Of a stretch of DNA of 38,902 nucleotides, positions 8,559 to 33,644 are shown piece by piece. The notes under the pieces are model-generated. The model ran no database searches and was not told the origin of the DNA. It saw only the letters and a program-made list of their open reading frames with translations. The first letter of the stretch is position 1; each line of letters starts with the position of its first letter. Where the stretch lies: contig PBSN01000017.1 of NCBI GenBank assembly GCA_002726235.1, forward strand, positions 1 through 38,902. Direction: 5' to 3'. The position numbers were made by a program, and so were the translations under genes. The DNA is from Nitrospiraceae bacterium (GTDB taxonomy: Bacteria > Nitrospirota > Nitrospiria > Nitrospirales > UBA2166).

Positions 8559-8715
8559 CTGTCCATGGAGGGTGGCGATCTGGAGGCAGAAGGCAGTGAT
8601 TGGAGGATAGTTCTGTAAGGCTTGCGGAGGGCTTAGAAGCGAAACTCCTATTTGCTTCGTGCTGATCTGCTGTCGGTAAGCCATGGGCCACTGTAAACCT
8701 ATATGAGGCGTGATC

Positions 8716-10650
8716 ATGAGCGCAGGGTTAGCAGAAAAAAACGAATCGATAGTCGAATCCGAGGAACTCATCGATACGTCGAAGATGTCCGATGGAAAGC
8801 GGGACGCGCTACAGCTTGCTGAATCCTCACGCGACATTGTCAAGCCGTCTCACAGCTTTGTTTCCCAATTGTTCATGGGGCATGTGGCGTGGGACATGAT
8901 TTACCCATTCAGAGAACAGCCCGCAAAGGACAAGGTTAAGGGAGACGCGTTTCTAGGAGAACTTGAGACATTTCTTCGTGAGCACACGGATCCTGATCAG
9001 ATCGATCAAGACGGTGAGATTCCACAGGATGTCATAGATGCATTGGGCAAGATGGGCGCCTTCGGCATTAAAATTCCCCCTGAGTATGGAGGCTTAGGCT
9101 TATCACAGACGAACTACAGCCGTGCAGCGATCCTGCTCGGGAGTCATTGCGGCAACTTGACTGCCCTCTTGTCTGCGCATCAATCAATCGGCGTACCACA
9201 GCCACTGATCATGTTCGGGACCGTTGAACAGAAGCAGAAGTACCTTTCACGCGTCGCCAAGGGTGAGATCTCTGCCTTTGCATTGACCGAAGAAGGGGTC
9301 GGTTCCGATCCGGCAAAGATAGAAACTCGAGCGGAACCAATTGCGGGAGGCAGTCATTTTATTCTCAACGGAAAAAAACTGTGGTGTACAAACGGCACGC
9401 GTGCTGGCCTTCTGATCGTGATGGCGAGGACGCCGGATGCACTAGTGCGAGGAAAACCCACACGACAAATCACGGCCTTTATCATCGAGACTAACACTCC
9501 TGGGGTCACGGTTGACCTTCGTTGCCGGTTCATGGGTCTCCGATCCCTTTACAATGGAGTCATCCAATTCACGAATGTAAAGGTGCCTCGTGAGAACATT
9601 ATTCTCGGCGAAGGCAAGGGTTTGAAAGTGGCGTTTTCCACCTTGAACACGGGAAGACTGACGTTGCCGGCTGCATGTCTCGGCTTGAGCAAGCGATGTC
9701 TCCAGATTGCGCGAATATGGGCTGACACGCGTGTCCAGTGGGGTGCGGCGATTGGAAAACATTCTGCCATAGCTGCAAAAATTGCGACAATTGCGTCGGA
9801 TACCTTTGCGCTTGAAGCCATGACATTGCTCACGTCATCGCTAGCTGATCGCAAAGAGGGGGACATTCGACTCGAGGCTGCAATGAGTAAGCTATGGGGC
9901 ACAGAAGCGGCTTGGCATATCGTCGATGAAACCATGCAAATCCGAGGGGGAAGAGGCTATGAGACCGCCCAATCCTTGGCAGCTCGTGGGGAAGAGCCAA
10001 TATCCGTTGAGCGCCTCATGCGCGATAGTCGGATTAACCTGATTTTCGAAGGATCCAGTGAAATCATGCGACTCTTTATCGCGCGAGAGGCACTTGATCC
10101 TCATCTGAGGCTTGGGGCTACAGTGATAAATCCGAAAGTGCCGATGGTTGAGCGGATTAGGGCTACGGGAAAAGCCGCGAAATTCTATGCTGGGTGGTAC
10201 GCGAAGCAGTGGTGGCTTTTGGGTGTGCGAATCCCGGCCGGAATGGATCGCCGGCTTGTACCCCATGCTCGTTATGTTGGAAAAACCAGTAAAAAATTGG
10301 CGCGCACGCTTTTTCACCAAATTCTCTGGTATGGGCCAAAGTTGGAGCGAGAGCAGATGATGCTTGGTCGGCTGATGAACGTTGGGACGGAGCTGTTCGC
10401 AATGGCGGCTACCTGCTCGAAGGCACAGGCCCTGCTCACACATGATGGTGATCGCAACGAGATCATTAAGTTGGTAGATTTCTTCTGTCAGGAATCACGT
10501 CTTCGTCTTACGCGAAACTTTCAGGGCATCAACGAAAATAATGATCGTCGTGGATATCGTCTTGCTCGTCAAATTCTCAAGGGGAAGTATGAGTGGCTGG
10601 AGGAAGGCATTGTGGCAAGAACATCAATGTTTGGAACATCGAAGTCATGA
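8716..10650 (+). CDS. Acyl-CoA dehydrogenase with C-terminal extension (VLCAD/FadE-like)
   Basis: An FAD enzyme that makes the 2,3-double bond of acyl-CoA, the first oxidation step of beta-oxidation. Recognisable parts are GAFGIKIPPEYGGLGLS, FALTEEGVGSDPAKIET (FAD and substrate contacts), GLRSLYNGVIQFTNVKVP, and IRGGRGYETAQSL followed by NLIFEGSSEIMRLFIAREAL. The Glu of FEGSSEI fits the catalytic base position. About 170 residues follow the core, as in VLCAD/ACAD9-type enzymes. ATG 8716 is preferred because GAGG at 8705-8708 is correctly spaced for it; the in-frame GTG at 8710 is too close. The gene lies 157 bases after the fadJ-like gene, possibly on the same transcript. The electron acceptor would be ETF, which is not encoded in the window. 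Confidence 0.9.
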   Translation: MSAGLAEKNESIVESEELIDTSKMSDGKRDALQLAESSRDIVKPSHSFVSQLFMGHVAWDMIYPFREQPAKDKVKGDAFLGELETFLREHTDPDQIDQDGEIPQDVIDALGKMGAFGIKIPPEYGGLGLSQTNYSRAAILLGSHCGNLTALLSAHQSIGVPQPLIMFGTVEQKQKYLSRVAKGEISAFALTEEGVGSDPAKIETRAEPIAGGSHFILNGKKLWCTNGTRAGLLIVMARTPDALVRGKPTRQITAFIIETNTPGVTVDLRCRFMGLRSLYNGVIQFTNVKVPRENIILGEGKGLKVAFSTLNTGRLTLPAACLGLSKRCLQIARIWADTRVQWGAAIGKHSAIAAKIATIASDTFALEAMTLLTSSLADRKEGDIRLEAAMSKLWGTEAAWHIVDETMQIRGGRGYETAQSLAARGEEPISVERLMRDSRINLIFEGSSEIMRLFIAREALDPHLRLGATVINPKVPMVERIRATGKAAKFYAGWYAKQWWLLGVRIPAGMDRRLVPHARYVGKTSKKLARTLFHQILWYGPKLEREQMMLGRLMNVGTELFAMAATCSKAQALLTHDGDRNEIIKLVDFFCQESRLRLTRNFQGINENNDRRGYRLARQILKGKYEWLEEGIVARTSMFGTSKS

Positions 10651-13331: not shown

Positions 13332-16300
13332 CTAGGCGGTGGTTTTGGTGGAGGGTGGTGCGAATCCGCGACGGAGTGTCTGCTCGGTGATCGATTGGGC
13401 AACCATGAATTGTTTGAGATAGTCGGGTCCACCGGCTTTGGCACCACAGCCTGAAAGGTGAAATCCTCCAAATGGTTGACATCCCACCAAGGCGCCAGTA
13501 ATTCCTCGATTGATGTAGAGATTGCCAACTTCAAGAACTTCTTTTGCATACTCGATGTTTCGCGGACTTCGCGAAAACAATCCCGCGGTCAGGCCATATT
13601 CGATGGTGTTGGCTATCTGCATGGCTTCATCGAAGTCGGAGGCGACCAGAACAGAAAGGACAGGGCCAAATATTTCTTCCTGTGCCAGGCGATTTTCTGG
13701 TCGAACATTGAGGAAGATTTTAGGCGTTACGTACCATCCGTCGTCTGGTACGGACTCCCAGGCATCACACTGCAACGCTTGAACGGCAACCTGCTTTCCG
13801 TGGTTGATATATTCGGTGATGGTGTCTAACGCTTGGTGATCAATCACGGGGCCAATCTGATGGCGTGGATCGTCTGGAGAGCCGATCGAGAGGCTTTTCG
13901 TTGCTTCGACAAGTCGAGAGATGAATGATTCGGAGATCATCGACAGCAGAATGAGGCGAGAGCAGGCTGAACATTTCTGCCCCTGAAATCCGAACGCAGA
14001 TTTGACGACTCCGCGAATGGCCTCATCCATGTCAGCTGTGTCATCGACGATGATGGCATTTTTGCCACCCATTTCCGCAATAACCTTTTTTATGTCTCGC
14101 TGACCATGGCGATGTTTGGCCGCAGTTTCGATGATCTGGAGCCCTACTTGCTTCGACCCAGTGAATGCGATGACGTGGATCTTGGAATGTTCAACAAGGT
14201 ATTGTCCTATATCTGGGCCACCCGGAAGAAATTGGAGAATGCCATCCGGAAGTCCACTCGCCCAAAATACTTCAGCAAGCTTCGCACCTAATACCAGTGA
14301 TCGCTCCGATGGTTTGAACAGTACTCCGTTGCCTGTGACAAGGGCGGCGGCAATCATCCCTGTTGGAATGGCTAAGGGGAAATTCCAAGGTGCCAGTACA
14401 GCCACAAGGCCACGAGCGCGATATTGCTGAATGTTCAATTCACCAGGGTAGTCTCCACATTGCGTGCGATTCCCAATCTGGAGCATTTCTCGTCCGTAGA
14501 ATTCAAGGAAGTCGATAGCTTCAATAACGTCGGCATCGGCTTCCATCCACGATCTTCCAACTTCCAGAATTTCCCATGCGGCGAATTCGAAACGTTTTTT
14601 GCGAAGTTCTTCCGCCGATTGGAATAAGATCTCCGCCCGTGCCCTTGGTTTCGTCGCACCCCACTTATTCTGGGATTCCTTGGCTTGGCTTATCGAGGCC
14701 TCAACATCGTGTTGTGTGGCCATGTACATGTGACCAATGACTTCAGAGGAATGGGCAGGGTTGTGTGAGACTAAGTGCTCTCTGGATGCGGTCACAAAAA
14801 AATCTGGATTACGCGTGTTTGTTTTTTTGAGATGATCCCTTGCCAGACTTAAGGCCGTCTGCATTACCATGCGCGAGCAAGGTTTTGAGAAATCGGTCGG
14901 GGGCTCATTGTGGAATTCCTTTGTTGTTTGCGAACTGTTGTTGGTGGAGCGGGGTTTGTGTTGAGCATTTATGCGTATTGGACTGAGAAGGACCCTGTCA
15001 AGGCCGTCAAACGAGCCGAATTGTTTGAGGAGAACAGATTGGTTTGCGGTGTTTTCGAGCAATCGGCGGACAAGGTATGCCATGCCTTGGAGAAGATCTC
15101 CGATTGGGGTGTACTCACGAAGACGCACGTTGATGTGTTGGAGCGCGTCCTGTAAAGGGGTGGCGATGCCGTGCAACATTTGAATTTCGTAGGCATGTTT
15201 GGGGAGGCCACGCTGTTGGGCCGATACCACCGCGTGAGCGATGCTCCTCACGTTATGGCTTCCGATAGCTGGGCGGATGAGGTTTGTGTGATTGAGAAGA
15301 ACGGCCGTCATTTTTTCGAAATTGGCATCGGTGTCGCTCTTCCGTTCGAACACTGGTGTTGGCCAACCTCGTTGTGCTGCAATGATCTGTTCGTAATCCC
15401 AATACGCGCCTTTAACGAGCCGAATATGAAATGGTTGTCCGCGTTGTGACACCCAGTCGATCAGCTTCCTCACGTCATGCTTGGAATCTTTAAGATATGC
15501 CTGTATGGCAACGCCGGCATATGGGTAGGGTAAGAACTCATCTTCGGTAAAGATCCGCTGAATAATATCCAGGACAAGGTCTTTCAATTGGTGGGTTTCC
15601 ATGTCGATAGTGACGGCTGCAGGAATGGCCTGAGCCGTTCTCAAAATTGCACGCAGTCGAGGAGCTACGCCGCAAAAACTGCCTTCCGGGCTGATTGGAT
15701 CTAACTGGGAATACAACGAGGAAAGCTTCACCGAGATATTTGTTCGGGGAAGTGCGCCGTGCTGATCGTTCTCGATCATGGGCTGAGGTTTCCATGTGCG
15801 GATTGACCGATCGAAAACGGTCAGCGCATCGACATAACGCTGACAATATTGATCTGCTTCTCGCTCGCTTACTGCTTCTTCCCCAAGAAGATCCACAGAG
15901 AACGCTCGTCCGTGATCCCATAGTTTTTTTAGCGGCCGCAACGATCCGGAGACGGTATCGGACACTATAAATTGGCGTGCGAACGATCGCGCCTGGCGAC
16001 GAACAATCGCGGCTACAATTTCTGCACTAGTCCGGTTCTGTGAAAGCATTTCGATGACAACTCTGATTGATTCTGGAAGTGCCTCGGCGGAAAAATATTC
16101 ACGCAATATGCGCACAAGCTGAGCGGGAGTATGGAGGCTTGGCAATACATCAATGAATTGAAACAGGTGGAGTTTGAATGCTTCGTCCTTAAGACAGCGG
16201 TTTAGGATTTCGTCTCGGAGCCAGCTTTTGGTGAGCACGACTGGACGGTGACGTTGGGAAAGACGATGCAACTTTTCACCCAATCTGTGTATGTCTGATT

Positions 16301-16349
16301 CGAGTATGTCTTGGTAGGGCGACGTGGCTATGTTGCTGATAGGCATCAT
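13332..16349 (-). CDS. putA: Bifunctional proline dehydrogenase / glutamate-semialdehyde dehydrogenase PutA
   Basis: A 1005-residue enzyme oxidising proline to glutamate in two steps, passing electrons to quinone through FAD and to NAD. The proline dehydrogenase half (about 60-470) shows AAVTIDMETHQLKD, HIRLVKGAYWDYE, EIQMLHGIA and LREYTPIGDLLQGMAYLVRR. The aldehyde dehydrogenase half (about 520-990) shows LAPWNFPLAIPTGM, FTGSKQVG, the Glu of AEMGGKNAII and the nucleophile Cys793 in FQGQKCSACSR, then EEIFGPVLSVL. There is no N-terminal ribbon-helix-helix DNA-binding domain, so this is a minimal, non-regulatory PutA. The start is a double ATG without a strong Shine-Dalgarno. It lies directly upstream of gltA, so glutamate from proline and citrate entry may be expressed together. 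Confidence 0.95.
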   Translation of the reverse strand: MMPISNIATSPYQDILESDIHRLGEKLHRLSQRHRPVVLTKSWLRDEILNRCLKDEAFKLHLFQFIDVLPSLHTPAQLVRILREYFSAEALPESIRVVIEMLSQNRTSAEIVAAIVRRQARSFARQFIVSDTVSGSLRPLKKLWDHGRAFSVDLLGEEAVSEREADQYCQRYVDALTVFDRSIRTWKPQPMIENDQHGALPRTNISVKLSSLYSQLDPISPEGSFCGVAPRLRAILRTAQAIPAAVTIDMETHQLKDLVLDIIQRIFTEDEFLPYPYAGVAIQAYLKDSKHDVRKLIDWVSQRGQPFHIRLVKGAYWDYEQIIAAQRGWPTPVFERKSDTDANFEKMTAVLLNHTNLIRPAIGSHNVRSIAHAVVSAQQRGLPKHAYEIQMLHGIATPLQDALQHINVRLREYTPIGDLLQGMAYLVRRLLENTANQSVLLKQFGSFDGLDRVLLSPIRINAQHKPRSTNNSSQTTKEFHNEPPTDFSKPCSRMVMQTALSLARDHLKKTNTRNPDFFVTASREHLVSHNPAHSSEVIGHMYMATQHDVEASISQAKESQNKWGATKPRARAEILFQSAEELRKKRFEFAAWEILEVGRSWMEADADVIEAIDFLEFYGREMLQIGNRTQCGDYPGELNIQQYRARGLVAVLAPWNFPLAIPTGMIAAALVTGNGVLFKPSERSLVLGAKLAEVFWASGLPDGILQFLPGGPDIGQYLVEHSKIHVIAFTGSKQVGLQIIETAAKHRHGQRDIKKVIAEMGGKNAIIVDDTADMDEAIRGVVKSAFGFQGQKCSACSRLILLSMISESFISRLVEATKSLSIGSPDDPRHQIGPVIDHQALDTITEYINHGKQVAVQALQCDAWESVPDDGWYVTPKIFLNVRPENRLAQEEIFGPVLSVLVASDFDEAMQIANTIEYGLTAGLFSRSPRNIEYAKEVLEVGNLYINRGITGALVGCQPFGGFHLSGCGAKAGGPDYLKQFMVAQSITEQTLRRGFAPPSTKTTA

Positions 16350-31462: not shown

Positions 31463-32461
31463 CTACTTCTTTACCTTCCAAACCGAATCCACGAAGTAGT
31501 TGTTTGCATCAAACAGGTGCTCCACAGTGTCATATCCGCTGTTCGCGGCAAGTGCTTTAATTTCATGTTGAGTGTACTTGTAGGAGTGTTCGGTTTGTAT
31601 TGGTTCCCACGCATCGAAATAAAACTTTTTCCCAAGTGCATCAATGGACACAACTTGCCTGCGCGTACTGTAAAGATAGCTCTCGACCGCATGTGTTCTC
31701 GGATTGTATTGTCCCTGCTGGACATAGTGATGCGTAGCAATGTCAGCTCCAAGTTTGTCGTTGATAATATCTAGCAGGTGAAGGTTGAATTTTTCAAACA
31801 GTCCCGTAGGATCGTTATAAGCGGAATAAAGAATTTTTGGGTGTTTCATGAGGTCAAATCCGATCATTACATAATCTCCGTCATTTAGCATTGCGTGGAG
31901 TTTCCGCAGGAACTGCTCAGCTTCGGGAAGTCTCATGTTCCCGATGGTCGAACCAAGGAATAAAACGATATTCCGCTGCTGTGGGTTCTCATCAATTGCA
32001 GCGAGACCGTCAAAATAATCCGCGGCCAATCCTTTTACCTCCAGCGCATTCCCTGAAAATTTTTTCTCCAACGAGGCAATGATATTTTTGATTGCGCCCT
32101 CTGATATGTCGATGGGAACGTAGGTAAATTTCAGATGGCTCTGAATAAAGTGCTCAAGAAGAACCATGGTTTTCCGGCCATCCCCGGCACCTAGCTCGAT
32201 GAGCTTAAAACATTCTTTCGAGAGGAGGTCTGTGATGACCTGTTTATGGGTGTGAAATATCTCAAACTCACATTGCGCGGGATGATATCCCGAAAGCTCC
32301 ATGATCTCGGTAAATATTTCGCTACCGCGATCATCGAATATCAACCACGATGGCAGATGCTTAGGGGTGTTCGATAACCCTTTAAGGACGGCTTGAGCGA
32401 ACTGATCATCCGATCGTTGCGCTGAGGCTCCCGATCGCAAATTGTGATATGCAAATGACAT
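31463..32461 (-). CDS. EgtD-like SAM-dependent histidine (amino acid) N-methyltransferase
   Basis: A 332-residue member of the EgtD family, whose characterised members trimethylate the alpha-amino group of histidine to hercynine in ergothioneine synthesis. LIFDDRGSEIFTEI is the family start, the SAM loop is LIELGAGDGRKT (87-98), and FLGSTIGNMRLPEA holds Asn175. AYNDPTGLFEKFNLHLL and IQTEHSYKY (Glu291, Ser293) match the substrate-binding end of EgtD. The N-terminal substrate region differs: the usual EYYPTR reads GYHPAQ, so the amino acid bound may differ. ATG 32461 is chosen because GAGGAAG lies just ahead; upstream in-frame codons would lack this. No EgtB or other ergothioneine gene is present. 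It is divergent from an HDO-family oxidase gene. Confidence 0.85.
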   Translation of the reverse strand: MSFAYHNLRSGASAQRSDDQFAQAVLKGLSNTPKHLPSWLIFDDRGSEIFTEIMELSGYHPAQCEFEIFHTHKQVITDLLSKECFKLIELGAGDGRKTMVLLEHFIQSHLKFTYVPIDISEGAIKNIIASLEKKFSGNALEVKGLAADYFDGLAAIDENPQQRNIVLFLGSTIGNMRLPEAEQFLRKLHAMLNDGDYVMIGFDLMKHPKILYSAYNDPTGLFEKFNLHLLDIINDKLGADIATHHYVQQGQYNPRTHAVESYLYSTRRQVVSIDALGKKFYFDAWEPIQTEHSYKYTQHEIKALAANSGYDTVEHLFDANNYFVDSVWKVKK

Positions 32462-32573
32462 AGCGCTTCCTCTTTCTGGATGAAACGATGCAGTGTTTGA
32501 TCGACATGAAATTGCTTGATAAAATGCCCGCTCGCATTTCTTATACATTTTTTCATATTTTAATCGCGCCTTG
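32462..32573. promoter_or_regulatory. Shared divergent promoter region of the EgtD-like and HDO genes
   Basis: These 112 bases separate two divergent starts and must hold both promoters, which makes co-regulation likely. The right half is AT-rich (TTATACATTTTTTCATATTT). No -35/-10 pair with good spacing could be fixed. Confidence 0.4.
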
Positions 32574-33644
32574 ATGCATCCTATGAACGTATCATCTTGC
32601 CAATCCGTTGACGAGGTCGATTATTGCGAAGCCGAGAAAGATTTTACGCGCTTGCTTCAACATGAAGATCTTGATCGGAAAATAGACACAACTCCCAAAT
32701 GTGTGGAATTATTTGAGAATACACTGAGCCTCGCGGTATCAGGCGTCTATGAGGAAAACATAAATTTTTCCAAAGCACATCTCTTTCTTCAACGAGTCTT
32801 GTATAGAATTAACCGATTAAAACTGTTTTGGTATGACGATCTTGAGAATTACGCCAATGAAAATTCAGCATTTCTCTTTGCCGTGAGGACAAAAATTGAT
32901 TCCGCATGGCAAGGCTGGGAAGCGCGGGCAACCGATGCCAACTCGTTGAAGCAGATAGATGTCGAGAAGGCACTTCGGAAACGCGTCGCCGAAGATCTTG
33001 ATCCAGAACCATCGCCGCCTGGCCTCTTCTTTCGGAACGAAATGTCGAGTGTCGGATACCGCCGGTTGTTGGCAATCTCCTCTCTGGATGGTTTGGTTGA
33101 AGCCAGCCAATTGTCACGAGTCATTGGGGGAGTAGGAAATGAAGTTCAAGCGATGCTCACCAAAATTTTGCTCGAAGAATACGGTGGCGGAAAACTGGCA
33201 AGAAAACATACGTCCTTCTTTGCGGCAATGCTGAATGAATTTGAGATGAACACCAAGCCGGAAGCCTATTTTGAGATTGTCCCGTGGGAGGTTTTAGCCA
33301 ATATCAACCATAGCTTTACCGTCTGTGAACGCAAACGAAATTTCTTGCGTTATATTGGGAGCCTTCTCTACTTTGAAACTTCAGTTCCTGCAGCGTTTCA
33401 GAACTATAAAATTGCAGGAGAACGTCTCGGATTTAGCCAAAGCGCTATTGGCTACTGGGACGTACACATCAAAGAGGACATCCGTCATGGACAATGGATG
33501 CTAAACGATGTCGCCATTCCCCTTATCGATCGTTATAAAAACTCAGCATGGGAAATTGTGCTTGGATACGATCAACAACGGTTTTTTAGTACCCGCGCCA
33601 GCCAGGCTGTTGCCAGATCAGTGCGGCAGTCTGAGAACGTCTGA
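32574..33644 (+). CDS. Heme-oxygenase-like diiron oxidase/oxygenase (HDO, iron-containing redox enzyme family)
   Basis: A protein of 356 residues whose C-terminal half has the HDO fold pattern. LLEEYGGGKLARKHTSFF supplies Glu202 and His212, YFETSVPAAF supplies Glu268, and YWDVHIKEDIRHGQW gives the diagnostic HxxxDxxH (His298, Asp302, His305). HDO enzymes (UndA, BesC, SznF, CADD) use a non-heme diiron centre for oxidative cleavage, desaturation or N-oxidation, often on amino acids or fatty acids. The N-terminal 150 residues are helical and unassigned. ATG 32574 is preferred over TTG 32571; ATG 32583 is also possible, and no Shine-Dalgarno helps decide. Its divergent neighbour is an EgtD-like methyltransferase, which suggests that an N-methylated amino acid is substrate or product. 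Confidence 0.8.
   Translation: MHPMNVSSCQSVDEVDYCEAEKDFTRLLQHEDLDRKIDTTPKCVELFENTLSLAVSGVYEENINFSKAHLFLQRVLYRINRLKLFWYDDLENYANENSAFLFAVRTKIDSAWQGWEARATDANSLKQIDVEKALRKRVAEDLDPEPSPPGLFFRNEMSSVGYRRLLAISSLDGLVEASQLSRVIGGVGNEVQAMLTKILLEEYGGGKLARKHTSFFAAMLNEFEMNTKPEAYFEIVPWEVLANINHSFTVCERKRNFLRYIGSLLYFETSVPAAFQNYKIAGERLGFSQSAIGYWDVHIKEDIRHGQWMLNDVAIPLIDRYKNSAWEIVLGYDQQRFFSTRASQAVARSVRQSENV

Follow-up and report, generated by a model that had tools for sequence, protein, structure and literature searches.

A Divergent EgtD-Fold Methyltransferase and an HDO-Family Diiron Protein Form a Conserved Gene Pair: A Candidate Module for N-Methylation and N-Oxygenation

Introduction

What is the role of an EgtD-fold methyltransferase whose gene stands back to back with that of a diiron enzyme of the HDO family? 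The question is raised by contig 17 of a Nitrospirales-type genome (PBSN01000017.1, from a Nitrospiraceae bacterium), on which the two genes lie between apaG and nuo genes; the stretch analysed, all 38,902 nucleotides of it, is referred to here as the window. The original prediction saw in the pair an amino-acid betaine pathway, in which the HDO enzyme acts on an N-methylated amino acid made by the EgtD homologue and yields a modified betaine, an alkene or an N-oxide rather than ergothioneine. The pair is likely to be new to the literature: no description of it was found in the literature searched, although this is weak evidence of novelty because subscription papers are poorly covered.

The Locus

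The methyltransferase gene occupies positions 31463 to 32461 on the reverse strand and encodes an EgtD-fold, SAM-dependent protein of 332 amino acids, an assignment based on PF10017, on the structural model and on the starts of its relatives. Its reading frame is open up to 32548, and the ATG at 32461, which is preceded by AGAGGAAG and whose equivalent most relatives use, is the likely start. The HDO gene runs from 32583 to 33644 on the forward strand and encodes a diiron N-oxygenase-like protein of 353 amino acids, assigned from PF14518, its ligand set and its model; alternative earlier starts are a TTG at 32571 and an ATG at 32574. The two facing reading frames thus lie where they were first described, separated by an intergenic region (32462 to 32582) of about 110 bases, or 109 to 121 depending on the start.

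This region contains a promoter-like site that reads toward the HDO gene, TTGATC-N17-TAAAAT, with a TG before the second hexamer (32497 to 32525, forward strand). Since seven promoter-like sites were found in the region and 4.4 are expected by chance, this site alone is weak evidence. Ten of 11 Nitrospirales relatives, however, have an identical site in the corresponding position. Elsewhere in the window are genes for an acyl-CoA dehydrogenase (8710 to 10650) and a PutA-type proline dehydrogenase/aldehyde dehydrogenase fusion (13332 to 16349), which suggest the use of organic substrates by this small Nitrospirales genome.

The Methyltransferase

The methyltransferase scores 300 bits against PF10017 and 270.7 bits against TIGR03438, the EgtD model, which is under the curated cut-off of 290.9. 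Its AlphaFold2 model (pLDDT 86) superimposes on EgtD with a Z score of 37.4 over 322 residues at 28% identity, and no other fold exceeds 16. When 39 pair-linked sequences were placed in a tree with 20 ordinary EgtDs, the two groups split with 100/100 support. Judged by its sequence, the methyltransferase belongs to a distinct clade and is not the EgtD of ergothioneine synthesis.

EgtD binds the α-amine of histidine through N166 and the carboxylate through Y56, Y206 and S284, while the imidazole is held through a water on T213, near E282 (PMC8593015). In the alignment, the equivalents of Y56, N166, Y206, E282 and S284 are kept in all 39 pair-clade sequences; Asn175, Glu291 and Ser293, which the original prediction had singled out, are correct when numbered from the ATG at 32461. 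On the other hand, all 39 have F in place of T213 and S in place of M252, positions at which ordinary EgtD has T or S and M or I, respectively, and Y39 is replaced by F in 31 of the 39. The pair methyltransferase therefore lacks the full histidine-pocket set of EgtD (Y39, Y56, N166, Y206, T213, M252, E282, S284). That M252 is a known specificity position follows from PDB entry 4pip, an M252V/E282A variant of EgtD solved with tryptophan. Thus, the comparison with the histidine pocket gave a divided answer: the side-chain pocket is altered, but the amino-acid clamp is not. We infer an amino-acid α-N-methyltransferase of altered side-chain specificity. Its substrate is likely to be an amino acid and, given the rebuilt side-chain pocket, probably one other than histidine.

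Could the methyltransferase nevertheless be a second histidine-specific EgtD, with the HDO protein replacing EgtB as the oxygen- or sulfur-inserting partner on hercynine? The conserved equivalents of E282 and S284 would agree with this, as would the searches for EgtB. Neither an EgtB above cut-off nor a DinB_2 domain was found in the 1.87 Mb genome (about 91% complete; the DinB_2 positive control matched), so a check for egtB elsewhere in this genome came out as the original prediction had it. The 77 relatives likewise gave no EgtB over cut-off, but the positive control was also unmatched in that search. Next to the pair there is no EgtB-, EgtC- or EgtE-like gene, as was noted at the outset, and the combination that marks an ergothioneine locus, an EgtB with DinB_2 plus FGE-sulfatase domains together with EgtD, is not found. 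However, the same genome encodes a separate, canonical EgtD (G000:C3:8275-9261, locus L033; 326.1 bits, above the TIGR03438 cut-off). Ordinary EgtD is present in more than 40 of 77 Nitrospirales genomes, about 30 of them without the pair, and the changes at T213, on the imidazole side, and at M252 occur in every member of the pair clade. Moreover, we know of no HDO that inserts sulfur, and we give this explanation very little credence. Ergothioneine function was rejected as the main reading on the strength of the canonical EgtD elsewhere in the genome and the differing pocket residues. In Nitrospirales with an ordinary EgtD, either hercynine may be the end product or sulfur may be inserted by a different step. 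The canonical gene at L033 adjoins nuo genes, with no EgtB nearby.

The HDO Protein

The HDO protein matches PF14518 with 92 bits, and no other domain was found; NCBIfam holds no model naming its family. The PF14518 fold is accompanied by the three histidine and three carboxylate ligands that define the superfamily, and by one carboxylate more: E173, E199, H209, E265, H295, D299 and H302 in the 353-residue numbering make up a 3H/4C set, and none of the seven varies among 77 homologues. The metal motif had been called full with Glu202, His212, Glu268 and HxxxDxxH at 298 to 305; these positions are right when counted from the ATG at 32574, but the seventh ligand was missed. Counted from the TTG at 32571, the set reads E177, E203, H213, E269, H299, D303 and H306, and the alignment with SznF then runs at an offset of exactly 12 through the ligand region: E203, H213 and E269 fall on SznF 215, 225 and 281, H299, D303 and H306 on 311, 315 and 318, and E177 on E189. 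These SznF residues are metal ligands. The additional glutamate characterizes a 3H/4C subset of about a quarter of HDOs, first recognised in SznF (PMC13108848), and the equivalent of SznF E189 is present in our protein.

In PDB sequence searches, whether with the single sequence or with the family profile, only RohS, SznF and HrmI, all N-oxygenases, rose above noise. The AlphaFold2 model (pLDDT 91.6, 77 sequences) is nearest in fold to HrmI (Z 33.4 over 329 residues), SznF (28.9) and RohS (26.8), and Foldseek ranks 1 to 18 are all N-oxygenases. FlcD comes next with a Z of 24.4, followed by a step down to CADD (18.5), BesC (17.9), UndA (16.3) and AetD (15.1). FlcD is an HDO that excises an oxime carbon, and its good match means that the fold does not prove N-oxygenation. 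With this in mind, sequence and model together indicate a protein that looks like an N-oxygenase and not like a decarboxylase or alkene former.

How close are these likenesses? RohS, the 2-aminoimidazole N-oxygenase of azomycin biosynthesis, is the closest PDB sequence match to the family profile, and both are stand-alone HDOs; yet identity is about 20%, the N-terminal domain is longer in our protein, and no azomycin genes are seen in the window. HrmI, a lysine N6-oxygenase, is closest in fold but only 18% identical, and its ligand set is 3H/3C (PMC13108848), whereas that of the present family is 3H/4C. SznF has the 3H/4C ligands as well, and its helical N-terminal domain is as long as that of our protein. 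It differs in possessing a C-terminal cupin domain, which our protein, ending at residue 353, lacks; therefore, the rearrangement step of SznF, which forms an N–N bond, is not expected here.

These comparisons bear on the possibility that the product of the methyltransferase is a betaine, either hercynine or some other trimethylated amino acid, and that the HDO protein then oxidatively cleaves, desaturates or decarboxylates it to an alkene or a smaller betaine. The superfamily does contain C–C cleaving enzymes, BesC and UndA, the six core ligands are in place, and the genes are adjacent. But the folds of BesC, UndA and AetD rank far below those of the N-oxygenases, none of the three is matched in sequence, and the extra carboxylate is of the SznF type, so that we hold betaine cleavage to be unlikely. 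There is also a chemical constraint: once a nitrogen is fully trimethylated, it lacks a lone pair and cannot be N-oxygenated. Consequently, the alkene or betaine N-oxide products that were originally foreseen become less likely for an N-oxygenase-like HDO.

Distribution of the Pair

Of 77 Nitrospirales genomes, 14 have the HDO gene, and these 14 and no others have the pair-type methyltransferase, taken as a match of 295 bits or more. The other PF10017-like proteins in these genomes score no more than 197 bits and are ordinary EgtDs. An identical distribution has a probability of 1.2e-15 under random draws, a figure made too strong by the relatedness of the genomes. In Nitrospinota, 42 of 77 genomes have the HDO gene, 36 the methyltransferase, and 34 both; the two with the methyltransferase only are accounted for by a 31-residue fragment and by a gene cut at a contig edge. 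The same search found no ordinary EgtD in the 77 Nitrospinota genomes. Many of the genomes are metagenome-assembled, which makes absences uncertain and some organism labels possibly wrong. One contig labelled Ignavibacteria (L045), whose copy of the pair is 75% identical, falls within Nitrospirota and is probably a binning error.

At every locus where the contig holds both genes, they are adjacent and divergent, and the flanking genes vary from genus to genus; the adjacency that the original prediction wished to see in relatives is indeed conserved, in unrelated surroundings. Methyltransferase and HDO are thus a conserved two-gene unit, far beyond chance. A larger conserved cluster was considered and rejected, as only these two genes recur across genera. 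Strict obligate pairing was likewise rejected, since the HDO gene occurs without the EgtD-fold methyltransferase in eight Nitrospinota genomes and in cyanobacteria, and without the pair-type enzyme in many genomes of other lineages as well. For the same reason, the HDO protein may, but need not, act on the product of this methyltransferase.

Exchange of the Partner

A contig scan gave 80 HDO loci, which belong to Nitrospirota, Nitrospinota, Cyanobacteria, Acidobacteriota, Binatota and further groups. The EgtD-fold partner is divergently next to the HDO gene in 41 of the 80 (one being a fragment), and in about 30% no recognised methyltransferase adjoins it, in some cases on account of a contig end. 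In a tree of the HDO proteins, all those with the EgtD-type partner fall on one side and those with other partners on the opposite side.

What, then, accompanies the HDO gene in cyanobacteria, where the EgtD-fold partner is absent from the HDO loci? Most have, adjoining the HDO orthologue, an unrelated methyltransferase of class I whose NPPY motif is typical of amino-group N-methyltransferases; the PDB sequence neighbours of this protein include HemK. Across 292 cyanobacterial genomes, the HDO gene is present in 22, and the NPPY-motif methyltransferase in 21 of those 22 and nowhere else, the single exception being a degenerate match (E 5e-4). In four cyanobacteria (L083, L098, L101, L115), a carboxylate-amine ligase of the YbdK/GCS2 type adjoins the HDO gene. 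Four (G097, locus L198; G286, G314 and G463, loci L195-L197) carry an additional HDO-like copy that is diverged or broken, and the broken one in G097 is flanked by an NPPY-motif methyltransferase.

In L079, L090 and L097, the gene after that of the HDO encodes a methyltransferase of yet another, third type (Methyltransf_25). In four loci of the Acidobacteriota/Binatota type (L082, L085, L106, L111), the HDO gene is followed first by a GT2-like gene and then by one for a PLP-dependent decarboxylase, with a four-base overlap between HDO and the next gene in three of them. This is a different pathway on the same HDO, whose neighbours again point to amino-acid chemistry. Taken together, the exchanges indicate that the HDO is the constant part and that its partner, usually a methyltransferase, is exchangeable.

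It could be argued that each enzyme has a molecule of its own to act on and that shared regulation is their only link, for instance as part of a defence against oxidative stress. The HDO DtpC of Acinetobacter, linked to catalase, serves in stress protection (PMC13232832), and some genomes have the HDO gene without this methyltransferase. Regulation alone, however, would predict neither the matching presence and absence in two phyla nor the substitute methyltransferase of cyanobacteria, and this explanation seems to us quite improbable.

A Proposed Module

We propose, with somewhat more confidence than doubt, that the two enzymes form a module for N-methylation and N-oxygenation, which acts on a non-histidine amino acid to give a small N-modified one, in the manner of SznE and SznF. 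An amino-acid substrate, N-oxygenation and the action of both enzymes on one compound are all inferred. The methyltransferase would grip an α-amino acid by its ammonium and carboxylate groups, as EgtD does, and methylate the α-nitrogen. The HDO protein would bind two irons through the seven-ligand SznF set, activate O2 as a peroxo-diferric species, and N-oxygenate the same compound at an amine or guanidine nitrogen, giving a hydroxylamine, a nitroso or nitro group, or an oxime. Since a quaternary nitrogen is closed to it, the HDO protein must either use a different nitrogen or act while methylation is still incomplete.

The precedent is streptozotocin biosynthesis, where SznE methylates arginine and SznF N-hydroxylates it (PMC11705231), that is, the same partnership of methyltransferase and N-oxygenase on an amino acid. 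The methyltransferases differ: SznE is an arginine-guanidino methyltransferase, and the enzyme here has the EgtD fold. With EgtD itself, the methyltransferase has in common the fold and the clamp for the amino-acid zwitterion; it differs in its separate clade, its score under the EgtD cut-off, its changed side-chain pocket, and an HDO partner instead of EgtB.

Implications

It is possible, and we suggest it only tentatively, that Nitrospirota, Nitrospinota and many cyanobacteria, the last with a non-homologous methyltransferase, make a widespread, undescribed amino acid that is both N-methylated and N-oxygenated, with the HDO as shared core and the methyltransferase as exchangeable part. To our knowledge, very few HDO enzymes have known substrates. 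The superfamily exceeds 10,000 members (PMC13108848), and in the clade described here, the fold of a closely linked partner indicates the type of molecule concerned, an α-amino acid. Partner fold and replacement by an unrelated methyltransferase in cyanobacteria together yield a short list of testable reactions. If the proposal is true, it would be a new route by which reactive organic nitrogen, as hydroxylamine, nitro or NO-releasing compounds, enters microbial communities. Among the hosts are lineages of nitrite oxidisers and cyanobacteria, and an organic N-oxygenation product in them would bear on nitrogen chemistry.
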